A program made the position numbers and the translations under genes. A stretch of DNA of 64,000 bases from Hyposmocoma kahamanoa. Taxonomy: Eukaryota; Arthropoda; Insecta; Lepidoptera; Cosmopterigidae. The notes beneath the pieces were generated by a model. The model worked only from the letters and a program-made list of their open reading frames with translations. It was not told the origin of the DNA and did not search any database. The DNA is taken from contig NW_020653726.1 in the NCBI RefSeq assembly GCF_003589595.1, positions 14,130,525 to 14,194,524 of the forward strand, written 5' to 3'. Shown here piece after piece: positions 2,777 through 57,900 of this stretch. The first letter of the stretch is position 1, and every line of letters begins with the position of its first letter.

Positions 2777-5700
2777 ATGGTGTATAGAAGACCAGTTTCT
2801 TGGTTCCTAACTGAGTCAGGACGTAAGTTTTCCTTCGCTGTCGTTACCGGTACTGGACTAGGGTTTACTGCTGCTAAATGGGCTCCACATACATTACTAA
2901 TCGATAAATACAAGGAATTCGTACAATACTATAGGTAATTTATAGTGCTCCGTACACAAATCTTTTTATAAAATTGTATTTTTCGGTGATGAATGTACCT
3001 TAAACTTACTCTGTTGACAGTAATGGAAAACCGCAAGAATTGTCTAATGAACTCCAGAAGCGCTGTGAACAATGTCTCGACATTCTAAAGTTGCCCGATG
3101 TGCACAGACGCCTAATAACACCGTTCAGCGTTTACGGATATGACCTATTCCATGCAGGTAATTTACTAAGAAATGTCGTAGTTTTTGTTGTAATTTCCCA
3201 TAGTTCTTTTAAATATGTTGCGATGTTAGGCGATTAACACACTGCACCGCGCCCCGCGACGGAGCGCGGAGTTGCGTTTTTTAACGTTGTACTGAAGTAC
3301 CTTAGTTTGTATGGAAAAAACGCGCCGTCGAACACACTGACAACGCTTCTCCGCGCGGAGGGGCGCAGCGAACCGCAGGGTATAGCGCACACTGCCCCCG
3401 CTGCTCCCTACACTCTGCACACTGTTCCCTAACAAATAATTAAAGGATTCAGTTGACATTTGTGTGTAGTTGAAAAATTAATCTTCATATTTTCTTAAAT
3501 CTTTGTAATGAACTTAAATGTTACCTTCAGTGTCTTTTTATTTGAGCAAACAAAAACAATCGACGTTATAACTAGTAGCACCCTGAATGAGTTCTGTATT
3601 ATTAACCATTCTTGTCAAAGAAGCAATCACTATGGCGATCAACTACGACGCGAGTACTTTGAGTGGCGCGGGGCCGCTAGACTGCTGCCCCCGCGCAGAT
3701 TGTGTCTCCGCCACCGCGCGCATGATTCGGCGCCGTGCAGTGTGTTAATCGCCTTACTGAAAGTCCTTTATGTGGTTTATGTTTTAAGCACTGATTTATT
3801 GTAATTTTCATTATGTCTGCAAATTTAACCACTACTTTTGAAATTATTGTTACCTCCATATTCCATAATCTAAGAAGCTAACAAAATTTAATTATGTGGT
3901 GCTTTAATTCTGAGAAGTAATTAAATTAGTTTTTTTTTTTCGAATATTTAGTAACCATCTGTGATCAATCTTTGATCCATAAACTGAACTGTTTATTGTA
4001 GTTTTAAATAAAGAGTCTTGTAATGCTTTTCTTCATTAGTCATTACTCAGCTGATTGTGTTCTACTGATTCAACTTTCTAGTATCCTTGACAAGATCAAA
4101 TTGCTGGTCGAAGTGACGTAAAGCTGCATAGTTCTTAAAAGCTGCCTTAACAATAAGTTTTTTTTTTTAACACACTTATAGTCCCGCACTAGGGAAATCC
4201 TGTATGGCGGGTACTATGGACACATACATAGACAACCACAAATTACACCCAAGGTCATGAAAGAAATAAATGTAGGCCATACAAATATTTCTCCCAGCCC
4301 GGGAATCGAATCCGGGACCTCTGCGTGACAGTCCAGTATGGTAACCGTTCGGCCATGGAGGCAGTTTGTGTGACACTTATTTTTATGTGTACATATAATT
4401 CTTTTGAATTTTTTTGTAGGCAGCTCGAAATCCAAATTTGGAGTAGCTGTTGGGATTCCTGTAAACTTCACTTACAAATCAATTGCTGATATTCTAAACG
4501 ATAATAATAATATACAAGTGAGTACATCCTTATTTCAGGATCTGAGTAATGCAGGCTTATCTTTTAGTTACAAAGTACATTAAACTGAACCCTACGTCCT
4601 AAGTACCAAGGTGAGACCAGCTTGGAGTATGCAGAATAGCATAGGTATCCTAAAAATATTTTTTTATCCGAGCAACCCTATAGGGTTCATCATCAGCCTA
4701 TTGCAGTCCACTGCTGGACATAGGCCTCCCCTAATGCACGCCATTTCGCCCTGTTCTCGGCTTGACGCATCCATTTCCTGCCAGCAATCTTCCGCAGATC
4801 GTCACTCCATCTGGCTGGAGGGCGTCCCACACTACGTTTGCCAAGTCGTGGTCTCCACTCAAGAACTCGTTTACCCCAGCGGTTGTCGGTTCTTCGGCAG
4901 ATATGTCCAGCCCACTGCCACTTCAGCTTGCTTATCCGAAGAGCTATGTCGATCACTTTGGTTCTCTGTCTGATAACCTCATTACGGAGTTTATCTTTCA
5001 GAGAAACTCCGAGCATAGCTCGTTCCATAGCTCGCTGAGCGACTTTAAACTGGTGGACTAGCCGTATCGTGAGTGTCCACGACTCAGCTCCGTACGTTAG
5101 AACTGGTAGGACGCACTGGTTGAAAACCTTTGTTTTTAAGCTCTGCGGGATGGGTGACGAAAAGACTCGACGGAGCTTCCCAAACGCTGCCCAGCCAAGC
5201 TGAATCCTCCTCCTGGCCTCCTTCTCGAAGTTATTTCTACCTAACTGCAGAATCTGCCCGAGGTAAGTGTATTCGGAAACAACTTCAAGAAGGTGGCCAT
5301 TGACGCAGATGGGTCTCGGATCAATGTGGTCATTGATCATGACTTTGGTTTTATCAAAGTTCATGCCAAGACCAATCCGCCGCGAGGCGGATGCTAGGCT
5401 GTTCAGCATCTGATCCAGTTCTTCCAGCGATTCTGCCATTAGGACTATGTCATCTGCAAATCGCAAGTGTGAGATGTACTCGCCGTTTATGTTAATGCCC
5501 ATCCTTTTCCAGTCCAGCGTCTTAAACATATCCTCCAATGCAGCGGTGAACAGTTTCGGGGATATGACATCCCCCTGTCTCACCCCTCTGCGTAATTGGA
5601 TAGGTTCAGACTGCTGGTCCTGTACTTGGACACTCATGGTAGCAGCATCGTAAAGACATCTCAACACTTGTATATAACGATAGTCCACTTGGCACCGCTG

Positions 5701-8700
5701 TAAGGATTCCAGGACAGCCCAGGTTTCGACAGAGTCAAAGGCCTTCTCATAGTCCACGAAAGCTAAACACAGGGGCCGATTATACTCTTCGGACTTCTGT
5801 ATAATCTGCCTCACTGTGTGTATGTGGTCTATGGTGCCATATCCTCCCCGAAACCCGGCCTGTTCCGGTGGCTGAAACTCGTCGAGTCTTCTTGCGAGGC
5901 GATTCGTGATGACTCTAGAAAACAGCTTGTAGACGTGACTCAGGAGTGAGATGGGTCGGTAGTTTTTCAGTAGAGTTTTATCTCCCTTTTTAAAGAAGAG
6001 AACTACAATACTCCTGTTCCACGCCCGTGGAGTTCTCCCGCAGTGAATGACCAAGTTAAAGAGCTTCTGAAGTTCCTGGATAATAGGAACTCCTCCAGAC
6101 TTCAAAAGCTCCGAAGTAACTCCGTCTTCACCGGGGGCTTTTCCATTTTTAAGCTGTTTTAGAGCCAACACGATCTCGTCTTGACTGATTTCTGGCAGGT
6201 CGTCGGTATAGTGGCGCGTCAAGGTGGCTCTCAAATCGTGATTGTCACGCTGGACCCGAGGAGCATTTACAGCGTACAAACGGCCATAGAAGTCCTCTAT
6301 CTCGTCGAGTATCTGCTGCCTTGACGTAACGGTTAGGCCATCGTGCGTTGTAAGCTTCGTCAGGTGGCTCCTTCCAAGCTGCTGAGTGAATACTTTGGAC
6401 CCTCGGTTTCGCTCTATCGCCTCCTCAATGAGGCGTGTATTGGAGCTCCGAAGGTCACGCCGTACCATCTTCGCAATCTGCTTGTTTAGGTATGACCTCT
6501 CTGACGAAGTGTCCTGGATGTCATCGCGTCTTTTCGTCATAAGTCGCAGAGTCTCATCCGAGAGTTTAGACTTCTTTCCCGTACGCTGCAATTGACAGAA
6601 TTTGATGCCCTCGCTTCTCAGCGTCCCAACCACGCCTTGTAGGGCCTCGTCAACGTCCTCGGTGGGTTCCAGCTCGACGAATCTCGCTTCGAGAAGTTCA
6701 TGGAACTTCTCGGAGCCCGCCATGATCTGGAGTGGATTAGGACGGAGCGTGGACTTCATCAAGCGGCTTCTTTCAAGTTTGACATCGATATTCAGAGAGC
6801 CTCGTACAAGTCGGTGATCAGATCCGGTGCTAAACCTGTTGATCACTGAGACATCTCTGAATATGTGTCTCTTGTCCGTCAGGATGAAATCGATCTCATT
6901 TTTAGTCACAGCGTCGGGGCTTCGCCAAGTCCACTTCCTTTGAGGCTTCTTCTTGAAGAACGAATTCATCAAGAAGAGCCCCTCGTGCTCGAGGAAGTTG
7001 ACTAGCGTTTGCCCCCTGTGATTCCTTACTCCATAACCATGCGGGCCGACTCGAGACTCGTCAAGATTTGGGAATCCCACTTTAGCGTTAAAGTCCCCCA
7101 TAACAACGTTGAAGTGAGCCTTGGTGGTGTTGTGTAAGGCTTTCGATATGTCCTCGTACATATCTTCTACATCGTCATCCGAATGTGTCGAGGTCGGTGC
7201 GTAGGCCTGAATGATCTTCAGGCAATACCTTTTTGATAGCCGAAGGATCTATAGGGTTGCTAGACTAAAATCTTCAACATTTTATACTGGAAATATAAAA
7301 TGTACACCAACCACATACATTGATTAGCATATAGCTAATAGTTAAAGAAAATGAAAAACATTTAAAGCACAAAACAATGAGATCAAAATTTATAATAAAA
7401 TTCACAAAACAGTACAAGAAAAAGACAAGTGAAATTAACCTAAAGGCCAAACTATTGTGTCTGACAACTGATTACTGCATACAACAAATGCAAATCATTT
7501 AATTTAGTTGCAGTAGAGCTCAGTGTGAAAAAGTTTGTCCAGGGAAGTACTGCCACCTTACCTTCTACCTGCGTACCTTACCTGCCACCAGTAACGTGAG
7601 CATTACTGCATTCTGGTTTGGAAGGGTAAGGGTGCTATGGTGAAATTACACACACATTTAACCAGTGTTGGACGTTAATCAACTAAACGATGAGATATTT
7701 AATTGGCTAAAACATTAATTGCAATTAATATAAATTGCAATTAAACCATTGCACATTGCAATTAATTTTAATGAAATTGATCTAAGTTAATTGTGGTTCG
7801 CAATTAAGTCACTTGCAATTTTTCTTTAATTGTCCGAAGAAACAATTAAAACTAACAATTAAATCCGGAACTACCGAATAAAAGCGTCAACTATACAATA
7901 TACTCTGCGATGAAATCAAAGTCTGAAAATGTAAACGTAGATGCCTTTGAGTGCCAGCAAGTGTTTAGTGCCTTCGAGCGCCCGCGAGTGCCTTCGAATG
8001 TTTTCGAGCGTCCACGAGTGCCTTTGAGTGCCCGCGAGTGCCTTTGAGTGCCTTTGAGTGTCTTTGAGTACCCGCTAGTGCCTTTGAGTGCCCGCGAGTG
8101 CCTTTGAGTGCTTTTGAGTGCCCGCTAGTGCCTTTGAGTGCATGCAAGTATCGGCGAGTGCCTTTGAGTGCCCGCGAGTGTCTTTGAGTGCCCGCGAGTG
8201 TCTTTGAGTGCCCGCGAGTGCCTTTGAGTGCCTACGAGTGCCAACGAGTGCCTTTGGGGCTTTGCAATTCAAAGCTCTGAAAGGAACTGCAACTGTTCTA
8301 CTAACTACCTGTTCGTCCCGTCACTTGGTATTATAAAAAAAAACTTAAAATATCTCCGCCAGTGGTCCTCATCGACTTTCACCGCAACATTATACGGACG
8401 TAGTTTGTGGTGCCACTAGGGATTCTGGCAAAACCCGATTAGTCAAAGTTGCAGTCGTTTGGTGTAGAAAATCTGCATTAAACGTGTGCTTCCTGTACAA
8501 ATAGATTCCAGCTGACTCAATAAGATTTTGGCCTATGAAACTGCTTCTTCTCCACTAGGGAATACGTCCTATACAAATGAAGAACATGAAGCGTTGCTAA
8601 ATGTGTACGTAAAAAATTTCTTCAACTTCGTTGACAGGTGCGCCCTTCTGACACAGATGGTACACATTAATGCTCAGGCAGGCCACACGGAGGCAAAGTT

Positions 8701-17646: not shown

Positions 17647-20166
17647 CCTTCGGCATACAAGGTGAAATTTAGTAACAAGCCGTACAAGGTGGGGTGTGAC
17701 ATACCCTAATAAATCCACAAAACGTGGTAATATTATTGAGTTTGGGTTGAATTGATTGAGGTTTTAATATTATGCGAAAGGTCATATAATAAAATATAAT
17801 TTTAAATTAAGTAATTGTTTATTATTATTAGGAACAAAAAAACAGTCAACTTCTGACTATATAACTGAATTGACTTGACATTAGGAACTATAACATAATA
17901 TTTATTTTCATAAAATCACAGTAAAGGTTATAAAAATGAACACAATTGACTCTTAATGAGTGAACATATACATATCTATCCTTAAAAAGATAAAATAATA
18001 ATAAAAGCTACTTTGAAATAATAAAAAATTATTCTCCATGTATGGAACAATTTTCACACAAAAAATGACAATGTTCGAGGCACAACGGTATGGAACATTT
18101 CTCGCATACATATTTGGTTTTGCGATCTTTTTTCCTAGGGCATTTGGAACATCTTTGGACACCATTCGTCTTTTTACCAGGTGAAGCCAATGATGGTTCT
18201 CCTAGATGTTCTCCTAATCTTTTACGTAATTCTTTGGGCAGCCTTTCGTTTTCTTTTCTATTTTTCTGATGCTCTTCCAGCAGCGATAAACCCAATTTCT
18301 TGAGAAATTTTCGCCTATGGTTAGATTTTTTCATTTGTATATTATTGTTTGATAGATAGACTATCATTGAGTTTATACCTGCATGATTCACCAAAGCAAA
18401 AAATATAGTGAGTGGCCACCGATTCGAGTTGCGGGAAACATCATAAGTTCTTGAAAGCTTATCAACTACATCTACGCCGCTTTTTGTTGCATTATAGAAG
18501 GTGATAATTTCTGGTTTTTGTTGAGCTCCAGTTTGTTCGTCTATTATTTGATCATGATGGAGTGATGACATTAAATAAACCATTTTTCTCGGTTTTGGCA
18601 CATAAGACACCAAAGTGATATCTTTTTGGAACCCAAACATTGAAGATTTCTCCTCACGTCTGGTCTTGAATTCAGCTGGTAAACAGGTTTTATTTGCCCG
18701 TAAAGTACCGACAACAGTGAGCTTGTGGTACTCTAGTAAATGTTGTGTGCTCTCTAAACTGGTAAAAAAATTGTCCATTGTAACATTACGTGAAGTACCC
18801 GAAACGCATCTTACTATCCTGTCTACTACATCGTATGGTTTGTTGCTGACAGTGTATGGGCTGTTATCAGGTTGTTTTCCGCAGTAGATTTCTAAGTTTA
18901 CTGTATAGAACGTTTTACAGTCAACGAGAGCATAGATTTTTATACCATATTTTGCCGGCTTCGATGGTATGTACTGTCTGAAACCACATTTTCCTCTAAA
19001 CGCGACAAGCTCCTCATCCAACGTGAGGTATTCGTAGGGTGTATATGCGTCTTGGCAGTTGGTTACAAAACATTCGAATATATGTCGTATAGGTGCTAGT
19101 CTATCCGTTGAAGCTCTGTCTGTCCTTGTCAACATATCATCGAATCTTAAGTTATTGAGTAGAAAGGTAAATCTATTTCGTGTCATAGTTAGACGAAATA
19201 TTTCAATACCCGTACCATCCGTCGCCCACAAGTCTTCTAAGTTTTCTCTTCCAGCGCGGTATACCCCAGCTAATATTAATAATCCGATTAATGCCTTAAG
19301 CTCAATAAGAGTAATTTCAGATCTCGTGCAGTCAATGGTTTCAGAAGTACCATATTTTAATAGTAGATTTGTTTGAATCCTGTTATTCGTGTGTATCAAA
19401 ATTGAATACAGAATATCCTCCGACAAAAACAGTTCAAAACATTCTAAGTGTGATTTCTTATTCCTTGCATGCGACTTGACTCCCGGTGTTTCCTTTATTA
19501 TGTTTTCATTTCTGGTACGTACATTTATTCTTGGTGGATTTTTCTGCCATTTTGTTCCGTCTTTACCAATGAAATAATTTCTAGAAACCGATAAAGTAGG
19601 GCTTAAGATGCGAGGATGTTCCCGGTTTGATAAAGTGGACTCATTTGAAGACTGGCGAGAGCGGGATTGCCTTATTGGATGACTTTGTAAGTGGGTAGGA
19701 AGCTGGTTGATATCCTCAGCATCTACCTCACTTTGATGACCTGACGCTATACTCAAGTGATCGGATTCGCAGTCATTTTCACACGGTATAACGGCGTCGC
19801 AATCGCTGTCGTCTTCTTCTAATAAACATTGTTCAATTAGCTCATCTCTAATACTAGCCATTATTTTTACCTATAACCAAAAATTGTATGGTATTGAAAC
19901 ATAATAAACATTATTATAATACCGAAAAAAAATAATAAGACCCTTACCTTTATATTTAAGTCCGATACAAGGTGGGGTGTGAGAGACCCAAAACACGTCC
20001 AGCGCCTAACAACGCGTGCATAACACTGAGCCAAAGACACCAATCGGAGCGGCAACGTTGCTAACTCAGCTACTAAAAGTGGCAACACTGACGCGTCATT
20101 ATTTTAAAAATTGTAACGATTTTCAACCGTCCGGGGTGCACTAGACCCCATGTTGTATGCCGAAGG
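17647..20166 (-). mobile_element. Complete piggyBac element, 2520 bp
   Basis: A perfect 14-base terminal inverted repeat, CCTTCGGCATACAA (17647-17660) and its complement (20153-20166), is flanked by TTAA at 17643-17646 and 20167-20170. A 17-base subterminal direct repeat TACAAGGTGGGGTGTGA lies at 17683-17699 and 19966-19982. The element carries one intact transposase gene on the minus strand. It interrupts the C-terminus of a LINE frame. Confidence 0.95.
18029..19861 (-). CDS. piggyBac-like transposase, intact (610 aa)
   Basis: A single uninterrupted 610-codon frame from an ATG at 19861. The N-terminus is acidic (DDSDCDAVIPCENDCESD). The DDE core of the piggyBac family (DDE_Tnp_1_7 type) follows, with the three expected Asp residues visible: D282 in YLTLDEELVAFRGKCG, D363 in NVTMDNFFTSLE and D464 in KSGVDVVDKLSRTYD. 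Their spacing (81 and 101) is close to that of the Trichoplusia ni enzyme. A Cys/His-rich C-terminal finger (about 571-605, CSKCPRKK to FLCENC) follows, as in active members. The enzyme excises and inserts the element at TTAA. Length, catalytic residues and identical terminal repeats all fit a recently mobile and possibly functional copy. Confidence 0.95.
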   Translation of the reverse strand: MASIRDELIEQCLLEEDDSDCDAVIPCENDCESDHLSIASGHQSEVDAEDINQLPTHLQSHPIRQSRSRQSSNESTLSNREHPRILSPTLSVSRNYFIGKDGTKWQKNPPRINVRTRNENIIKETPGVKSHARNKKSHLECFELFLSEDILYSILIHTNNRIQTNLLLKYGTSETIDCTRSEITLIELKALIGLLILAGVYRAGRENLEDLWATDGTGIEIFRLTMTRNRFTFLLNNLRFDDMLTRTDRASTDRLAPIRHIFECFVTNCQDAYTPYEYLTLDEELVAFRGKCGFRQYIPSKPAKYGIKIYALVDCKTFYTVNLEIYCGKQPDNSPYTVSNKPYDVVDRIVRCVSGTSRNVTMDNFFTSLESTQHLLEYHKLTVVGTLRANKTCLPAEFKTRREEKSSMFGFQKDITLVSYVPKPRKMVYLMSSLHHDQIIDEQTGAQQKPEIITFYNATKSGVDVVDKLSRTYDVSRNSNRWPLTIFFALVNHAGINSMIVYLSNNNIQMKKSNHRRKFLKKLGLSLLEEHQKNRKENERLPKELRKRLGEHLGEPSLASPGKKTNGVQRCSKCPRKKDRKTKYVCEKCSIPLCLEHCHFLCENCSIHGE

Positions 20167-20850: not shown

Positions 20851-23800
20851 ATGCGTAACGATCACAGGACTGATGCGGAAAAGGAGGCGGGTGCCAGTCT
20901 CCTAAAAAACTATGGTGAATTTTTCAAGAAACAATATCAAGACTTTCAGTCTACATCCGGCGATAGGAACTGGTCAGAAAACAAGACCTATGTGCCGATA
21001 CAAGTGGACATGATACAACATGAATTGTTACCAATCACATACTTGGTGGCGTCGGATAACACTCTCATGACGAAAGTCCTGAGTGTCCTGTCGTCGTTGT
21101 GCGTTGAGGTGATTACTTTAAAACAGGAAGCGTTCGATAGGTTAGTAATAAAAATAATAGACTTTTAAATTTTGTACAAATTTTAATTGTTGTAAACATG
21201 TATTTACCTACCTGCCCCGTTATACAATTTATGTGATTTTGCTTGATGTGAGTACACTGTCATTTCCCTGCTGTTAAAGCTTCCTGAAGCGTTCCACTTT
21301 GTTGCTAGCCATACCAGAACACTAATAGGACTCTTGCAGCTGTGTTACACTTGGACTGGAGTACTGTAATGTAATTATTTCCATCATATAATTTCCATTT
21401 ATTGGCATATAAAATTACCATGAGCTGTGGGAGCCTAATGATTGACCTAGTGCCTCTAAAGCAGAGGCTGTCTTCAAATCCAGATGCAAAATTTTTTGGT
21501 GAAGCGAAACATGATAAAATCTGCATGTCGAAGAAGATTCATTACCCTCAGAAAATGTGTGAAGTCCTCAACCTGCATTGGGCCAACATGGTGAACTATA
21601 AATCCCTCACCTGAGAGAAGACTTGTGCCCAGCAGTGGGACGTGAAAATGAGTAGGTGATGGTAACTCCCATAGTCACAAGTAGTTATGAAATTGGTAAA
21701 CATTTTCTGAGAATACTCCAGTATCTTCACTTCAGTTAGTCTTAAACTCAGTGAAAACTCTAATGGTCGTATTCCAGAACTGTACTCAATGCTCAAGTCA
21801 GGATTTGAGCAGACTTGAGTATGATTTCAAGCACCGGAAATACGACCCTAATGGCAAGGACTTGAGTATGATTTCTAGTGCTTTGAATCATACTCAAGTC
21901 CTGACTTGAGCATTGAGTAGAGTACTGGAAGACGACCCTAAATTTTCTAAGGTTCAGCCCTTAATGAGTAACAGTTGTATTTTACATTTACATAGTCTTA
22001 GTACGTACTGTTAAAGATGTGACCATGTTTTAAAGTAAATAGTAAGCATTGCTCAGTATTATAATATGCTAACATGATTGCAAAAATACATCTTCATCTT
22101 TCCAGGCACTTCACTTTCTTGTCAGTATATGAAGAATATGGTATTACTGACATGAACTCCCAAATGGAATCAGTTTGTTTGCTGAGTGCATTTATTAGTC
22201 GTTGTGATGAGACACTGCGCAATCTATGTAGCCAGGTGTTCGCCATATTCACTGAAGCTGTTATTAATCTTAGTAAGTCACAATTTTATTTTATTTGGTG
22301 TAAAAGAATGTGTATCTTAAATTATATGTCTATGTCATATGTATTTCTGAATTATTTTTTTTGATATTTCAAAATTTTAATATTCACAAAATAATTGTCA
22401 TCACATTTAATTTTGCTGAACAAACTTTGTTACCTTGATTTCAGATGGTATTCAGCTGCACTACATAATAAACCACATTGGAGAACTATTTACAATCATA
22501 GTTCTGATGGAGCTACTCATCTCAAATACATCTTTGCCTGCTACTTGGAACAAGTACTGCAAGAACCTCAAATTACTTAGCCACATGCAGAACATTGACT
22601 TGATCGAAGAAAAGTTACAAGCATTAAGCTCTGCTGTAGATAACATTACAAAGAAGCTTATGTCAGACAATATAGTTCAAAACACACTCCAAAATCTAGC
22701 CACTCTAAGGAAGAGTTTAGTAGACAAAAACTGCTCAATGGTATCGTCAGAGTTCACAAATTACCTAAAGCAAGCCATAATTAACTTAGACAAACTAGTA
22801 CAAGATATACCCAATGTGACAACAATGTATAAATGCGTCAAGATTAATGCGCTGTTTGTTCTCAGCTCACATTTATTTGGCAATATCGATAAGAAAATTT
22901 TCAAATCATTGATTGAATTGAATACAAAGGTCTCTATCAAGTGTACCACCAATTATTGTGCTATTAAATACTTGTTATTTGCTTCTTTATTAAAATAATG
23001 TTTTATCATTTCTAGGCACACAGTGTCCACATAATTGGTACGACAGTTTGGTTCCCAGAGCAATTCCTACAAAGATATGCACCAGCACAAAGTTCAAGTT
23101 ATGGAAAGATGTCACAAACCATGATTAAAGCGCGCCAAACTTATATAAGCAACAAGAAAGCAAGTTTGGCTCGAGATATGACCTCTCTGCAAGTCATGTG
23201 CGCACAGTGGGTGCTCAGTGTCGAAGACGCCTTTTCTGCTAGTCACCACAAACTAAATGCATCAGAAATGAGCTTGCATGCAAAATTACTCTTGGAGGGT
23301 CTTAATGTAGCCTCAAATATAAACTATTCTGTACTAACTTTGATCAATGTACATGTTTCACTTGGAGTGCCATTATCAAAAAGCATGCTGATGTCATTGT
23401 TCGAAGTCATAGACATGTTAAAATGCCTTACAAATGCAGTGTCGCGAAATCGCAATCAAATTTTAAACTCTCTAAACATGACGATCCAACATTTCATTTT
23501 CCAAGCAATATCTTCAATACTAGAGGTAAAGAAAGCATTAATGACTGACAAGAACTACGCCAACAAGAGATTAGATGAGCTCACTTGTCTTGTAATAGCA
23601 GAACGATCTCTAAGAGGTGTGGCGTCTTTAGAACGTAACGTAGCCGCCAATGTTGCGTTGAGCTTTGTGCCAGACACTACTTACCTGGAAGATAGCTATG
23701 TGAAACTTGGAACTTTACTAGAAAAAGTACAAACCTTGTCAAATTTTACTAAATCCATGGATAACTTCTGCAACTGCTCATGGATGTTATGGCATCAACA

Positions 23801-25433
23801 TGTTATACCAATCTATTTGGACCAGAATTTCAGTATTCAGTTGAATGCTCTGAAGTTAAAGTATTTCTTGATGGTATTGGAAGATTGTGCAGTATTATTG
23901 CACAAAACAGACAAGCAATATAAAAAACATAAATCCAAAGATTTTATAAGCAGTATGAAAAGCATGATAAATGAAAGTTTACTCAGAACCACCAGCCAGA
24001 ACATAGAAACGAATTTACGTTTGCACATTCACTCTCATTTGCAACTGGATGTTGTGAATCCCTTCACATTCGACATGGTTAAAAAACTGCTATTGGTGAT
24101 TGATAACTTCAGAATCCAAAATATCTACATGTCTGTTGTGCCATCAGTGGAGCACTACTTATCAACTATGTATTATAATTTGACTACAGTTGTATTATCT
24201 GACTGGAAAACTTATGGAGAAATGCGACAAATGGCCAAATTTAAATTGAACTTAAAAACGGTACAAGACAATCTTCCGACACAGACTCTAGAACAGGGTC
24301 TAGATGTATTGGAAATCATGCGAAATATACACATATTTGTTTCTAAATACCTGTACAACTTGAACAATCAAATTTTCATTGAGAAGAGCAGCAACAACAA
24401 ACATTTGAACTCAATAAATATCCGACACGTCGCCAACTCAATTAGAACTCACGGTACGGGTATTATGAATACCACAGTGAACTTTACATATCAGTTCTTG
24501 AAAAAGAAATTTTTCACATTTTCTCAATTCATGTATGACGAACACATAAAATCGAGACTAATCAAAGATCTGAGATACTTTAAAGAAAATGCTGAAGTCA
24601 ATGAAAACATGTATCTCTACAAAAATGCAGACAAATTCAACAAAGGGATTAGAGTACTTGGCCTCGCTGAAGATGGTCAAAGCTACTTAGATCTTTTTAG
24701 AGATCTTATTAGTCAGATCGGAAACGCGATGGGATATGTTCGTATGATCCGTTCAGGCGGAAGACATTGCTGTTCCGACGCTACCGTCTTCTTGCCTACT
24801 CTTGATATAAGTAAATCCTTCAAAGAGTTGTGCGAGGAAGAAAACCTGGGGCATGATGCCATTCAAGCATCTGAAATTTTAGATAACAATATTAATTGCT
24901 TGATTACGAATTTCCTACAGGGTACGGAGTATTTCAAGTTGCTCGTCGACGTATTCGCGCCAGTATTTCGCAACCCTAAAAATGTCCATTTGAAGAATTT
25001 TTTCATAATTGTTCCACCATTGACATTGAACTTTGTAGAACACATGATACTGTCGAAAGACAAAATGTCTAAGAAAAATAAAGTGGGTGCAGCCTTTACT
25101 GATGACGGGTTTGCTATGGGTGTGGCTTACATTCTAAAACTATTGGACCAAGTACGTAAAGTTACTCCACATTATTTAAAACACGTATACGACTTATGAA
25201 CGTAACAAAAAAATGTTGCTTTTCAGGACTCCAATTTCGAAGCTTTGCATTGGTTCGACTCCATCTGGAAGCACATAAAAGACGAAAGAAGAGCCCTTGA
25301 GGAACAGAAATTAAAAGGTTCAGTGCAGTTACAGCAAGCCTTAGCCCTTACAGAGAAGAAAATTAAAACTCTCGAAGAAGAATACAAACTCCTTTATTAC
25401 AGCCTCACTAGCGCAAGGATATTTTTCAGATAA
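20851..25433 (+). CDS. WASHC4: WASH complex subunit 4 (SWIP)
   Basis: Five exons at 20851-21140, 22106-22272, 22445-22929, 23016-25151 and 25227-25433 join in phase to 1094 residues. Human SWIP is about 1170, with the extra length in a charged tail that is absent here. Strongly conserved family blocks: TLEQGLDVLEIMRNIHIFVS, HVANSIRTHGTGIMNTTVNF, FSQFMYDEHIKSRLIKDLRY, QIGNAMGYVRMIRSGG, EGTEYFKLLVDVF-like, VPPLTLNFVEH, and GAAFTDDGFAMGVAYILKLL. The final exon ends YYSLTSARIFFR. SWIP is a scaffold of the WASH complex, which activates Arp2/3 on endosomes for cargo retrieval. The donor after exon 3 (AAG then GTCTCT) is weak, but it is the only one keeping the frame. A MITE lies in intron 1. Confidence 0.93.
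21764..21938. mobile_element. MITE family M1, copy C
   Basis: Starts GGTCGTATTCCAGAACTGT and ends GTACTGGAAGACGACCC, with internal GACTTGAGTATGATTTC blocks in both orientations. TAA lies on both sides if the first G is mutated. It lies in WASHC4 intron 1. Confidence 0.8.
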
Positions 25434-26127
25434 CTATTCAACACAGGCTTATATTGTATTGTGTAGTTACAATGTATGTAAGATTATGTATGTATTTGTA
25501 TTTGGAATTTGTGATATGACACCAAATTGCATATTAATGATTAATCTAAAAACATTTTAATATTGTTGTAGTTAGTTATACATGTATTATAATAAGACCA
25601 AGTAAAACATAAATGATTTATTTACATACCATCCATTTTATTTCTTGCTCATTTATTTATTTAGTATTACTTTTTTGTAGAATTTATTATCTACAAACTC
25701 TTAACCCATTAAAACACATAAAAAGACCAAGGTCATAATCATCATGTCATATCATAACGTCAATTGTGTTAATCAATCACAAATACAGACAATAACATCA
25801 ACATGTTACAGAAATTCATAATTATCATTTTCACTTTGAAGTCTTGCCACAGTACACGTCACTATTTTCATTAAAGTATGCACTTTCCTATTTTGCCACT
25901 GGTTGAACAGGGATGGGAATGAAGGAAAGAAGGTTGGAAGGAAGGTTACCTACCAGCAAAGAGTCTGGAGTTGTATTTGTTGCTATGAATAAAGTAAAAA
26001 TGGAGCCCAGCAATCAAATAAGACATTACGTTTAAGGAACGAACTGAAAGTATATTTTTTTCTGCAGATGTAAAGTCCTTCGTGAATTAAGAAAATATTT
26101 AAAAAAATCTGAACTTAAATGTTGCAT
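25434..26127. other. Convergent intergenic region; no gene seen
   Basis: AT-rich 3-prime flank between WASHC4 and the minus-strand repeat frame. I see no recognisable element apart from possible 3-prime UTR sequence. Confidence 0.4.
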
Positions 26128-27013
26128 TTAGTCGTTGTTTACTGTTTCTTTGGATAAACGGAAAAAGTCAGCAGCGGCTTCGCGTTTCGAATTCACAACG
26201 TGATTCGAATTGAGAGTTTCAGTAGTTATATTATGGTCGATCATGGACGAGTCGACATTGAGTGCCGAAGTTGATTGATAAGAATAATTAACCGTGGATG
26301 AAGCATTGCATACTGAGGTCAATGTTGAAGTGGACGGCACCAGACTCTGCCACTGTGAATTCAGGTACTCGTTATAATCCTGTATCTCAAGTGGATCATT
26401 GCTCAGATGCATGGACGAAGTGAAAGGTGCTGCAGATGTAACGCGACTACAATGAATATCCCTGGGTGTTTCACTGTTACAAGCGTCTAATGATGAACGG
26501 AAAAAATGAGCAGCGGGAAAGCGATTAGATTGTGTGTTGAGGAACGAATTTGAAGCATTATAAGCTATGCCATCGTTGGATTCGGTAAACACGAATGAGC
26601 TGAAACGACGTGCGGATGAAAATTGGTAAGAATTATCAGCCATGTACGAAACTTTAGGATCAGTAACGGTAACGTCATCACGTTTACGTTCTGAGGGTAA
26701 CATTGACACCATTGGAGTAGGACATTGCAAACTACTCGTGTATTTGTTGTCAATATGTACTGGAAGGCGATGATTGCTATGCAAAGAAGTTCTGATAAGA
26801 ACTGCATCAGTAACGTCTTGGTTTTTAGCAGTCATAGATAAACGGAATAAGTCAGCAGCGGTAACGCGGTTAGAATTCACGTCGAGAAATGAACGAAGGT
26901 TATCAGTACATATAGCGTGATTAGACTCGGCGACAGTGGACGAGTTGACATCTGATGGAGGAAATTGGTAAGAATTAACGACCACGGATGAAGCAAAATC
27001 ATACTGAGGTTGT
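26128..27013 (-). CDS. Degenerate repeat units, shifted frame, possible C-terminal part
   Basis: This frame continues the tandem-repeat protein of 27020-29038 but is shifted by one base relative to it. It opens at about 27013 (no ATG at the junction) and ends at a TAA at 26128. It holds three more, more divergent units, each with the family marker: SNRVTAADLFRLS, SNRFPAAHFFRSS and SKREAAADFFRLS. A local 22-base duplication at about 26996-27030 (CTCAGTATGATT twice) separates the two frames. It could be a separate exon, a frameshift mutation, or an assembly error. Function unknown. Confidence 0.45.
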
Positions 27014-27019
27014 ATGCAA

Positions 27020-29038
27020 TCATACTGAGGTTGGCGTTGAAATTTTGGTCAGTGACGAGGCCTGGTGTCGCAAAGAACTCTGATATTTGTTGTATACAGA
27101 AACCTGATGTAAATCAGCACTTGGTTCTGCATATGCAGATGTGACACAATTAGAATTAATATCCATGTTAAAATCGTTGTTATTAGCAACCAAGGATAAG
27201 CGGAAAAAGTCAGCAGCGGTAACGCGGTCAGAATTGACGTTGAGAAACGAACTGATAGTATCAGTAGACGTAGCATGATTGGACTCGGAGGTCGTGCACA
27301 AGCTGACATGTGATGGAGGAAATCGGTAAGAATCGACGACCATGGATGAGGCATTGCTTACTGAGGTTACCGTTGAAACAGTGGTCAGTGTCGCGGCCTG
27401 GCGTTGCAAAGGACTCGGATATTCGTTGTAAATATAAACTTGGAGTTTATCGTCAACCGGATCTGCAGATGCACTTGTGACTCTATTAGAATTAATTTCC
27501 TTGTAATCATTGCTATTAGCAACCAAGGATAAACGGAAAAAGTCAGCAGCGGTTGCGCGGTTAGAAATGACGTTGTCAGTAAATGAAAAGTGGTTGAACT
27601 TCGCGATCGTCGACGAGCTGATACGTGATGCCGGAAATCGGTATGAATTAACGCATACGGATGAAGCTTTGCATACTGATGTTACCGTTGAAATCTTGGT
27701 CAGCGACGAAGGTTGCCGTTGCGAAGAACTCGTATATTTGTTGAATACAGAATCCTGGTGTGAATCGTCATTCGGTTTTGCGTATATAGATGTGACACAA
27801 TTAGAATCAATATCCGTGTTAAAATCATTGTTGCTAGCTACCGAGAAAAAGTCAGCAGCTGTAACGCGGTCAGAATTGACGTTGAGAAACGTACTAATAG
27901 TATCAGTAGAAGTAGCGTGATTGGACTCGGAGGTCGTGGACAAACTGACATGTGATAGAGGAAACCGGTAAGAATCGACGACCATGGATGAGGTATTGCT
28001 TACTGAGGTTACTGTTGAAACAATGGTCGGTGTCGAGGCCTGGCGTTGCAAAGATCTCGGATATTCGTTGTAAATATAAACTTGAAGTGTATCGTCACCC
28101 GGATCCTCAGATGCACTTGTGACACTATTAGAATTAATTTCCTTGTAATCATTGCTATTAGCAGCCAAGGATAAACGAAAAAAGTCAGAAGCGGTTGTGC
28201 GGTTAGAATTGACGTCGTCAGTAAATATAGCGTGGTTGGACTCCGCGATCGTGGACAGGCTGACATTTGATGAAGGAAATCGATGAGAATTAACGATCAT
28301 AGATGAAGCATTGCATATTGAGGTTACCGTTGAAACAGTAGTCGATGTCGTAGCCTGGCGTTTTGAAGAACTCGGATGTTTGTCGTATACAGACACTTGA
28401 AGTGAATCGTCACTCAGTTCTGCATATGCAGATGTGACACAATTAGAATTAATATCCCTGTTGAAATCATTATTATTGGCAATTAAGGATAGACGGAAAA
28501 AGTCAGCAGCGGTAACGCGGTTAGAATTGCCGTTGAAGAACGAACTGATGGTATCAGCAGATGTAGCGTGGTTGGACTCCGCAATCATGGACGAGCCGAT
28601 ATCTGAAGGAGGAAATCGGTAAGAATGAACGGTCTTAGATGAAGCGTTGCATACTGAGGTTAACGTTGAAACCGCAGTGGTCGGTGTCGGGGCCTGGCGT
28701 TGCGGAGTACGCGGATATTCGTTGTAAATATGAACTTGAAGTGAATCGTCACCCGTATCGGTAGATGTAGATGTGTCGTTATTAGAATTAATATCCTTGT
28801 TATAATCATTGCTATTATCAGCTGAGGATAAACGGAAAAAGTCAGCAGCGGTAACGCGGTTAGAATTCACATCGAGGAAAGTACTAGAAATAGATGTTGC
28901 GTGGTTTTGCTTTTGATTTGATTGGTTGATCTTTGACTTGATAAGACGTGTTGAACTAAATTGGTAAGAATTATCAACCAGCACGGAAGAAGTATCCAAT
29001 GATACTGAGGTTACCGTTGGTGTCTTAGTGGTCGTCAT
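27020..29038 (-). CDS. Unrecognised Ser/Asn/Thr-rich tandem-repeat protein (672 codons)
   Basis: I do not recognise this protein. An uninterrupted frame from an ATG at 29038 to a TGA at 27020 consists of six units of about 105-120 residues and the start of a seventh. Each unit has three markers: SNRVTAADFFRLSL, then [IV]-Y-N-E-Y-P or V-Y-N-K-Y-x, then VSTVTSV-NASSMVVDSYRFP. Units alternate between two types. Type A has NDYKEINSN and VYIYNEYP. Type B has NDFN-DINSNCVTSAYAE and VSVYNKY. There is no signal peptide or membrane segment. The frame is the same as that of PRPF40 upstream and is separated from it by four TGA-C stops. It may be a C-terminal extension reached by readthrough or splicing, a separate small gene, or a non-coding repeat that happens to be open. 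No identifiable promoter. Confidence 0.45.
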   Translation of the reverse strand: MTTTKTPTVTSVSLDTSSVLVDNSYQFSSTRLIKSKINQSNQKQNHATSISSTFLDVNSNRVTAADFFRLSSADNSNDYNKDINSNNDTSTSTDTGDDSLQVHIYNEYPRTPQRQAPTPTTAVSTLTSVCNASSKTVHSYRFPPSDIGSSMIAESNHATSADTISSFFNGNSNRVTAADFFRLSLIANNNDFNRDINSNCVTSAYAELSDDSLQVSVYDKHPSSSKRQATTSTTVSTVTSICNASSMIVNSHRFPSSNVSLSTIAESNHAIFTDDVNSNRTTASDFFRLSLAANSNDYKEINSNSVTSASEDPGDDTLQVYIYNEYPRSLQRQASTPTIVSTVTSVSNTSSMVVDSYRFPLSHVSLSTTSESNHATSTDTISTFLNVNSDRVTAADFFSVASNNDFNTDIDSNCVTSIYAKPNDDSHQDSVFNKYTSSSQRQPSSLTKISTVTSVCKASSVCVNSYRFPASRISSSTIAKFNHFSFTDNVISNRATAADFFRLSLVANSNDYKEINSNRVTSASADPVDDKLQVYIYNEYPSPLQRQAATLTTVSTVTSVSNASSMVVDSYRFPPSHVSLCTTSESNHATSTDTISSFLNVNSDRVTAADFFRLSLVANNNDFNMDINSNCVTSAYAEPSADLHQVSVYNKYQSSLRHQASSLTKISTPTSV

Positions 29039-29113
29039 CGGGACCTCGCATTGTAAAGTATTCAGGTACGCGCCGTCGAAATACGTTTCAGTTCGTACCT
29101 GGGCTGTCTTTTG

Positions 29114-29626
29114 TCACAAAACCTGTTCCACTTCACATCTGACCTGTGCCAAAAGAGCATTAATGGAAGTGCGGTCAAACTCATTCCCTGGCTTGGAACA
29201 AGGGAGGAAAGAGTGCGAAAAATGAAGGGGTACTGTAAAATCTTCCTGGCGCCTCAACCGTAAGGAAGTGTGGACCTGATGTCAGTAAACATGCTCCACG
29301 TCCGAATTAATTTGCGGTGAAGAATCAACACTGAGGTGGTCGATTTCAGAGTGTGAGGACGAACGGAACGAAGTTAGCCACGGGGACCCGAAAGACGAGT
29401 AATGCTCGAGGAGGGGAGAGGGCGGTAGAGAGTGGATATACTGAGGCGATGACTGTTTTGACACCAGCGGTGGGTGGCAGGAAGGGTACTGGTTGAAAAT
29501 GAGTATCTGAGGGGGCGTGGGGGAGGCGCTGTGTCACTCGAACGGGGAACCGTCGGAAGGCGCGGGGGTCGTGGTGGGGGTTCTGCGCGGGTACCGGTTG
29601 AAGATGTGCACGTGCGTGACGCGACG

Positions 29627-29629
<3 letters not shown>
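29114..29629 (-). other. Four in-frame TGA-C stops linking PRPF40 to the repeat frame
   Basis: In the PRPF40 frame, stops occur at 29629-29627, 29536-29534, 29284-29282 and 29116-29114. Each is TGA and each is followed by C. No TAA or TAG occurs between them. The segments between stops are 30, 83 and 55 codons. The first contains VHIFNRYP (29611-29588) and the second ILIFNQYP (29506-29483). Both match VHIYNEYP of the downstream repeat units. TGA-C is the stop context most often associated with readthrough in Drosophila. Whether translation passes these stops is inference. Confidence 0.6.
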
Positions 29630-43541
<13,912 letters not shown>

Positions 43542-54993: not shown

Positions 54994-57900
54994 ATGGTTG
55001 GCAAAAGTAACAAGTTATACGTTCACAAACGAGGTAAGAAGTGTCTCTAAGCTCTATCCTTATTAACCATCACCTAATACAAAGAGTTTAATGGTTATAG
55101 GTCCTAATTCACTCCCGGAACAGTCAAACCAAAACCAATAAATTTTAATGTCTCAAATTGGTCCTAGCGAGAATCGAACGTTGGACCTCACACAAGCAGT
55201 TCAAGTTGTTGGACCACCAAGACCACAACTTAATTGACATAATTTTTTTGTTTAAAAAGTTAATCTATACAGATGTAAGATAAATATTTGGTTAAGATTG
55301 TGGAGTTACATTGTGTTTGAATTATTGATTATTGTAATCTCATTATTTTGTTCAATGTTACAATTTTAGGAGGTAGGGTGGAAGAGGTGCATATTGACAA
55401 GATCACTTCTAGGATTAAAAAACTATGCTATGGCCTGAATATGGACTTTGTAGACCCTGTAAGTTGGATTTTGTAATAGTGCTGTACTGTCCTCCTTGTT
55501 ATGACTAACGCATTCGCATTTTGGTATCTTTCCAGATATGACACCTAGTTTTTTATTTGATTAATAAAAGGAAATTTTTGCTGATTTCAAATATGTTAAC
55601 TCAATTTTGCTAAAAATGTTGTTTACATTAGTTATGATAAGGAGAGCTGTATAGGCGCATCTTATAAGAATTTCTTTTTGGGAGAATAAATAAGCATTTT
55701 AAACTATCATTTTAACAGGTGTCTATAACACTAAAAGTTATCAATGGTATTTACTCTGGAGTGACAACAGTAGAACTGGACAATTTAGCAGCAGAGACAG
55801 CTGCTACAATGACTACTGACCACCCAGACTACGCAGTGCTTGCAGCAAGACTGGCTATATCCAACTTACATAAGGAGACTAAAAAGCATTTCTCAGGTAT
55901 ATAATTAATAGTTATATTCACATTTTATAAGCTGTATGCAGTGTTGGGCGTTAATCAATTAAATTTCAATCAATAATTCAATCAGATTAAAAAATCAATT
56001 CAATTGAAATCAATTGCAATTAAATCAATTGCAACGCGTCGCAATTGATTTAATTGCAATTGATTTTAATTGCAATTGAATTGATTTTAATTAATAACGC
56101 ACACACTCAACATAGCCCCGCACTAGGGAAACCCTGTGTCGCGGGTGCCATGGACACACATATAGACAACCACAAATTACACCCAAACTCACGAGAGAAA
56201 TAAATGTAGGCCATACAAATATTTCTCCCGGCCCGGGAATCGAACCTGGGACCTCTGCGTGGCAGTCCGGCATGGTAACCGTTCGGCCACGGAGGCAGTT
56301 ATCTGGGGACCCCAAGCGGGAACACCAACTGGGGCCCACAAGCGGGGACACCAACCGGGGGCCCCAAGCGGGGACACCAACCGGGGGCCCCAAGCGGGGA
56401 CACCAACCGGGGGCCCCAAGCGGGGACACCAAGCGGGGACCCCAACCGGGGCCCCCAAGCGGAGACCACAAGCGGGGACCCCAAACGGGGCCCCCAAGCG
56501 GAGACCACAAGCGGGGCTCCCAACCGGGGCCTCCAACCGGGCCCCCTAACCTGCCCCCAGCAGGCCCCCAACCGGCCCCCACAACCAACGCCCTAACTCA
56601 CCCCCATATGCCTTATAAATTTATCATAATTGTCAGTTTTAATTGTTAATCAAAAACATTGAAAAGATTGAAAATTGATTAATTGTTAATTGTAGATATT
56701 TGCGATTAACGATTGATCAATCGTTAGTTGCGAGAACCGCAATTAACAATTGATTAATTATCAATTGTCAATTATCAATTGTTAATTGCGGTTCTCGCAA
56801 CTAACAATTGATCAATCGTTAATTGCTGTTTCGCAATTGACAATTAATCAATTGTCAATCTTTAATTGCCAGAACAATTAAATTTTGCCCAACACTGGCT
56901 GTATGTTATTGGGATGCAAAATCTGTGGGAATTATATGTAATCAAATTTGTTACAATTTTTCTACCAAACATAACACTAACTTGTTTTTACTACTATTGC
57001 TCCAGATTTTTTAAACCTCGATAAGGTAAGCATTAATGTTTTTTATTTCAATTCTAAAAAATGCTTCAAAATTAATTATGAAACTATCTCCTGATTTCAG
57101 ATGTTATGACAGATCTTTATAATATTATTAATCCATTCACCAAGAAGAAGGCTCCAATGATTTCTGACTACCATTATGACATAATCATGAAGAATAAGGA
57201 GAGATTGGACTCAGCCATTGTCTATGACAGAGATTTCAAATATAACTACTTTGGATTCAAAACCCTTGAGAGGTCTTATCTTCTCAAGCTAAATAAGAAG
57301 GTAATTAATATCTAGTTTTGGATGGAAGTAAAATAGTAAAAAATACATGCATCTTACCTGTTATTTCTAGTTATTTATTATTATCAAGTGCAAAATGTGA
57401 ACTAAGATGACACATATAACAATTACAGGTGGCAGAGAGGCCTCAGCACATGCTTATGCGTGTAGCTATTGGAATCCATGGTGATGATATTGACGCTGCC
57501 ATCAACACATACAACCTGTTGTCAGAGAAGTATTTTACACATGCTAGCCCCACTTTATTCTCAGCTGCAACTCCCCGACCTCAATTGTCCTCTTGCTTTC
57601 TCATTGCTATGAAAGACGATAGTATTGAAGGTATTTATGACACATTGAAACAATGTGCACTCATTTCGAAATCTGCGGGTGGAATTGGAGTCCATGTACA
57701 TTGCATCAGAGCCAAAGGGACATACATTGCTGGCACAAATGGTGTCTCCAATGGCCTTGTTCCCATGCTCAGAGTATACAACAACACAGCTAGGTATGTT
57801 GATCAGGGTGGGAATAAAAGACCTGGAGCATTTGCAATATATTTGGAGCCATGGCATGGCGACATTTTTGAGTTCCTAGATCTCAAAAAGAATACTGGAA

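Follow-up and report, generated by a model that had tools for sequence, protein, structure and literature searches.

Coding exons of the orphan tandem-repeat type are characterized by in-frame repeats, avoidance of stop codons, weak constraint on their amino acids, and the failure to find a homologue. Two further systems with additional coding sequence downstream of a gene are described in insects, namely stop-codon readthrough and dicistronic transcripts. Among predictions of serial readthrough, Jungreis et al. 2016 (PMC5100048) give 35 double candidates in Anopheles gambiae, five of which are triple, and Crosby et al. 2015 (PMC4528330) give 22 double cases for Drosophila together with two triple ones; conserved Drosophila extensions show a median readthrough of 5.2% (Dunn et al. 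2013, PMC3840789). Here, we compare these systems with a repeat array behind the PRPF40 gene of Hyposmocoma kahamanoa, located in a stretch of 64,000 nucleotides (the window, to which all coordinates refer). The array shares the in-frame repeats, stop avoidance, weak constraint and lack of a homologue (within the searches described below) with the orphan exons; it differs from them in lying directly behind PRPF40, with motif copies that come as close as 15 bases to its stop codon. In common with the readthrough candidates of PMC5100048 and PMC3840789, the locus has a conserved stop position, a TGA-C context and a frame-0 motif past the stop; it differs in having four stops in series and a spacer that is not stop-depleted, as read in the DNA of one species. 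As in the dicistronic transcripts of PMC4528330, a second long open reading frame (ORF) follows a gene on the same strand with no AATAAA or ATTAAA in between (P=0.058); it differs in that the second ORF, as read from DNA, has no convincing start and is broken by a frame change.

PRPF40 is encoded on the minus strand; joining its exons in the window gives a protein with 99% identity to isoform X2 of H. kahamanoa PRPF40A (P0001, 825 aa), whose C-terminus is the same. The spliced model contains no internal stops: Its penultimate exon (exon 17, 29783..29946) ends in a phase 2 donor (GAG/GTCAGT), and its last coding exon (29627..29711) ends in HEHDD-TGA, the stop occupying 29629-29627. A homologue search with this protein, in which the query lacked an N-terminal part and included four extra residues (SRWQ), yielded 2121 matches, the best 41 of which were compared; the 39 with names are presumably all from moths or butterflies. 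The homologous end LLAQLH[EA][HQ]..D is found in 34 of these 41 best matches, whereas the other seven (P0029, P0030, P0031, P0038-P0041) have different ends and represent isoforms or partial models. Because so many of the best matches end at the homologous position, the alignment identifies the first TGA, at 29629, as the genuine and ordinary end of PRPF40, and its conservation implies that any extension always needed either readthrough or splicing. Residues past the conserved end occur in 0 of the best 41 matches, which is a weak observation, as annotated proteins stop at the first stop by rule. Four of these annotated proteins, P0029 (Bombyx mori X3), P0030 (Papilio polytes), P0031 (Brenthis ino) and P0038 (Papilio machaon), have other C-termini that depart close to where the penultimate exon ends, although some of them may be partial models.

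Past this end, the same frame meets three further stops at 29534..29536, 29282..29284 and 29114..29116. Each of them is TGA followed by C, as is the PRPF40 stop, so that the four in-frame TGA-C stops of the original prediction (29629, 29536, 29284 and 29116 on the minus strand) are indeed present. Beyond 29116, the frame of PRPF40 stays open as far as a TGA-T at 27022; neither TAA nor TAG appears in it before 26977. The prediction went further and proposed that these stops could act as a ladder of readthrough, in which all four would be passed in turn to give C-terminal extensions of graded length, up to one that runs into the array. This reading draws on the uniform context of the stops, as only 0.7% of null sequences holding three stops have TGA-C at all of the later three (a pattern picked out post hoc), on the position of the motif copies and the array in the PRPF40 frame, and on the triple readthrough that is predicted in insects (PMC5100048, PMC4528330). 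However, the spacer between the first and the fourth stop (29626-29114) is not depleted in stops: It contains three in 171 codons, and three or fewer are found with a probability of 0.51 in Markov sequences of the same composition. This is chance level, and its openness is therefore no sign of coding. The other two frames between 29626 and 29038 hold three (+1) and eight (+2) stops. The array, in contrast, has 0 stops in 1003 codons (versus 3/171 in the spacer, Fisher p=0.003), so spacer and array were not both kept open together.

Further observations do not favor the ladder either: CTA follows none of the four TGA stops, and no window behind them folds into an RNA stem significantly better than chance (z of 0.82, -0.76, 0.23 and -0.95). 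A DNA profile search of 29630-29050 gave no match, and Rfam returned nothing at gathering scores for 25000-30500. Moreover, not all segments between the stops look coding, since the third has neither repeat similarity nor an excess of GC at third codon positions (GC3). At the median of 5.2% per stop given in PMC3840789, simple arithmetic lets about seven ribosomes per million pass four stops in series, which is negligible, and quadruple readthrough was not found in our literature search. Neither PMC5100048 nor PMC3840789 mentions Prp40 or CG3542 in its main text, and AGAP008263 is likewise absent from that of PMC5100048; a search for Prp40 together with readthrough and stop codon retrieved, in the records covered, nothing beyond yeast translation work. 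With the spacer not stop-depleted, the stops unevenly distributed, no RNA fold significantly better than chance and, more weakly, 0 of 41 homologues extended, a ladder of leaky stops at PRPF40 is unlikely, and we give next to no credence to a chain through all four that ends in the array. The TGA-C triplets at 29536, 29284 and 29116 look more like ordinary chance stops in a spacer with two remnants of the repeat motif.

These remnants lie in the first two of three segments. Segment 1 (29537..29626, 30 codons) carries VHIFNRYP at 29611: The stretch VHIFNRYPRRTP starts 15 bases past the PRPF40 TGA and matches VHIYNEYPRTP of array unit A1. Segment 2 (29285..29533, 83 codons) carries ILIFNQYP at 29506, while no motif and no repeat similarity were detected in segment 3 (29117..29281, 55 codons). 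Both peptides thus occur in the PRPF40 frame as had been proposed, and the further claim that the segments share ancestry with the repeats and were probably coding divides: Segments 1 and 2 do share the repeat motif, and the repeats were coding, but the spacer as a whole lacks stop depletion. A copy of the motif was seen in 0 of 20,000 dinucleotide shuffles read in three frames, for a pattern written after the sequence had been seen. The profile of the whole unit is weaker: of 2000 shuffles, 15 reach its frame-0 score and 52 the score of its best single stretch. A single frame holds PRPF40, the two motif copies and the first ORF of the array (ORF A), for which arithmetic gives a chance of about 1 in 27. 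Among the three minus-strand frames, frame 0 has slightly better codon-usage scores than the others in 17 of 18 rows.

Segment 1 deserves separate consideration, because neither AG nor ATG lies between the PRPF40 TGA and VHIFNRYP. This excludes canonical splicing and ATG initiation, so that in-frame translation of the motif would need readthrough of the conserved stop. Readthrough might accordingly be confined to the first stop, in which case segment 1 would be a translated extension of PRPF40 to 29536 and the repeats would have arisen from or beside it. The stop position, which is conserved in 34 of the 41 best matches, and the leaky context (TGA-C, though not TGA-CTA) are in line with this, as is base composition: 26 of 30 third positions in segment 1 are G or C compared with 36 of 60 at positions one and two (p=0.015, one of nine segment tests), a GC3 similar to that of the last 60 codons of PRPF40 (0.85). 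In addition, the 11 codons aligned with the A1 motif (one extra codon excluded) differ at one first, two second and eight third positions, that is, at 8/11 third positions versus 3/22 others (p=0.0014), although this comparison is biased by ascertainment, as the motif was found through protein similarity. The synonymous differences may also sit on the branch leading to the array, which was coding anyway. Together with the missing RNA stem, and with a comparison that covers the DNA of one species, these points make readthrough of the first stop an improbable reading of segment 1. A still bolder version, in which readthrough of the conserved TGA-C yields the VHIFNRYP peptide that then seeded the array by in-frame duplication and so acted as a nursery for a repeat protein, strikes us as very improbable. 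If segment 1 is translated, the locus would connect the readthrough of stop codons with the origin of new coding sequence; if it is not, it is a warning that in-frame TGA-C chains and motif sharing arise without chained readthrough.

The array itself covers about 3 kb of the minus strand, from about 29095 to 26128; it opens with a partial unit, continues with about eight full ones of 103-115 codons each and closes with a stub. ORF A (27020..29113, first ATG at 29038) comprises the partial unit A0, the full units A1-A5 and the cut unit A6, and ends with TGA-T. ORF B (26128..27048) lies in the next frame and comprises the partial unit B0, the full units B1 and B2 and a 16-residue stub, ending with TAA. 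The long frame that had been noted behind the fourth stop, 672 aa from the ATG at 29038 to 27020, is real and far beyond chance. This ATG is nevertheless unlikely to be the original start because it lies inside the repeat-homologous first partial unit; five ATGs in other frames occur upstream of it since 29292. At the junction of the two ORFs (27000..27036, delimited by eye), there is a 21-base insertion that forms two copies of a 16-base stretch spaced 21 bases apart. Compared with the other units, the frame then moves by +1, and this shift at about 27020 cuts off the last third of the array. The units between 28852 and 27023 alternate between two types (A1/A3/A5 and A2/A4/A6) in trees and thus form a two-unit higher-order repeat, in which A3 and A5 are the closest pair with a dS of 0.117.

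Across the nine unit rows, with the B rows read in their own frame, not a single in-frame stop is present, while 25 and 94 stops are counted in the two alternative frames of this strand. We simulated neutral evolution along the unit tree, starting from the present-day units A5, A1 or A2: These tip-rooted runs accumulated on average 14.6, 15.7 and 14.2 stops, respectively, and none of the 3 x 1000 runs remained free of stops. A cruder test, based on a unit consensus and the minimum number of substitutions, expects 4.1 stops across six units and gives P(0)=0.017. The indels that differ among A1-A5 measure 3, 3, 9 and 18 bases; this count refers to A1-A5, as B1 and B2 show gaps that are not multiples of three in an unconstrained DNA alignment. 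From its stop avoidance, it follows that the array was coding: It clearly evolved while being translated.

The residues, in contrast to the frame, are hardly constrained. A codon model yields an omega of 0.88 for A1-A6, 0.82 with B0-B2 included and 0.95 with A0 included, and freeing omega from 1 gains only 0.27, 1.31 and 0.05 log-likelihood units (2dlnL of 0.5, 2.6 and 0.1), none of which is significant. Hence, purifying selection on the residues of the array is not detected, and the constraint on its amino acids is close to absent. A lower Nei-Gojobori ratio (pooled pN 0.32, pS 0.41) was mostly removed by the codon model, which estimates kappa. The product is rich in Ser, Thr and Asn and is probably disordered; the poor fold predicted for one unit from seven unit rows (mean pLDDT 52, pTM 0.13) agrees with this and is no proof of it. 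No relatives of ORF A were found among proteins of about 370-1176 aa (E 0.001) or about 1100-3500 aa (E 0.01), each search having scored the roughly 8000 candidates with the most shared words. Searches of Pfam and PDB with the repeat ORF returned nothing significant, and of seven stretches in viral contigs that fit its pattern none was confirmed. The array is thus probably best described as an orphan repeat-coding region whose frame was kept while its residues were free to change, and which has partly decayed. In this long coding region, which is missing from the searched protein entries, selection has acted strongly against stops and scarcely on residues, and it lies in what gene models would call a 3' untranslated region.

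The frame change at about 27020, together with the frame and motif that PRPF40, spacer and array share, could also mean that the whole stretch was once a single C-terminal extension of PRPF40, damaged in recent times by all the later stops and by the frameshift. Against this, the lesions are unevenly spread between spacer and array (p=0.003), and the best matches share the position of the first stop; we regard a decayed extension of this kind as unlikely.

We instead favor an explanation in which PRPF40 terminates normally at 29629 and the tandem-repeat region was being translated during almost the whole of its expansion, with none of the four stops being passed; we hold this reading to be the probable one. 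The array would either be joined by splicing as an alternative final exon or be read as a frame of its own, and would give a Ser/Thr/Asn-rich and probably disordered product that retained its frame and not its residues. With the +1 shift at about 27020 it would be at least partly decayed, and the three TGA-C triplets would be ordinary stops in a spacer that keeps two motif remnants. An alternatively spliced C-terminus and a decayed extension had been named as alternatives in the original prediction, and both fit better than its readthrough ladder. The favored explanation leaves several points unaccounted for: The array has no convincing start codon, the shared frame of PRPF40, motif copies and ORF A goes unexplained, omega does not differ from 1, and no array-containing entry turned up in the lengths searched.

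For splicing, a candidate route exists. A putative 3' splice site at 28954..28957 (score 3.9) would open an exon from 28955 in phase 2, in phase with the exon 17 donor; joining 29783 to 28955 would remove all four TGA-C stops with the intron and lead into the first unit, with the drawback of dropping the first part of A0. On their own matrix, the 16 acceptors of PRPF40 score 5.6-14.8, a circular yardstick; when each in turn is withheld from the matrix, the scores run from -1.8 to 11.0, and the acceptor at 28955 falls in the middle of this range and is ordinary for PRPF40. It proves little, because similar sites are common: of the 3457 AG sites on this strand of the window, 400 reach a score of at least 4. 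Other acceptors would enter deeper in the array (for example 28039, score 6.2, phase 0) or meet the stop at 29116 (29143, score 5.5), and strong donor-like sites at 29144 (8.3) and 29099 (8.2) have no evident partner. An isoform that skips the last PRPF40 exon and joins the penultimate one to the array is thus a specific form of the favored explanation and overlaps with it. The matching phases and the mid-range score speak for it, as do the other C-termini of P0029, P0030, P0031 and P0038, which part from the common sequence close to the end of that exon, some maybe in partial models. The abundance of acceptors of this strength, the lack of a fused protein among the entries of 1100-3500 aa searched and the coincidence to which the shared frame of the last exon would then be reduced speak against it, and we regard this isoform as a tentative possibility.

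A single transcript could, on weak grounds, span the array, since the minus strand carries no AATAAA or ATTAAA between 29626 and 25700; shuffled sequences hold 2.9 on average, so the depletion is not significant (P=0.058). The first AATAAA cluster past the PRPF40 stop lies at 25617..25688 on the minus strand and marks a possible transcript 3' end beyond the array.

Facing the array and convergent with PRPF40, a WASH complex subunit 4 gene with WASH-4_N, WASH-7_mid and WASH-7_C domains occupies 22435-25199 on the plus strand. Further away, two uninterrupted minus-strand frames belong to mobile elements or resemble them: One of 851 codons (4693-7248) with endonuclease and reverse transcriptase domains is similar to a non-LTR retrotransposon ORF, and one of 613 codons (18029-19870) contains a DDE_Tnp_1_7 domain and is presumably of the piggyBac type. 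At 56305-56586, a GC-rich tandem repeat of 13/26/39 bases leaves several frames open on both strands and thereby produces long spurious ORFs.
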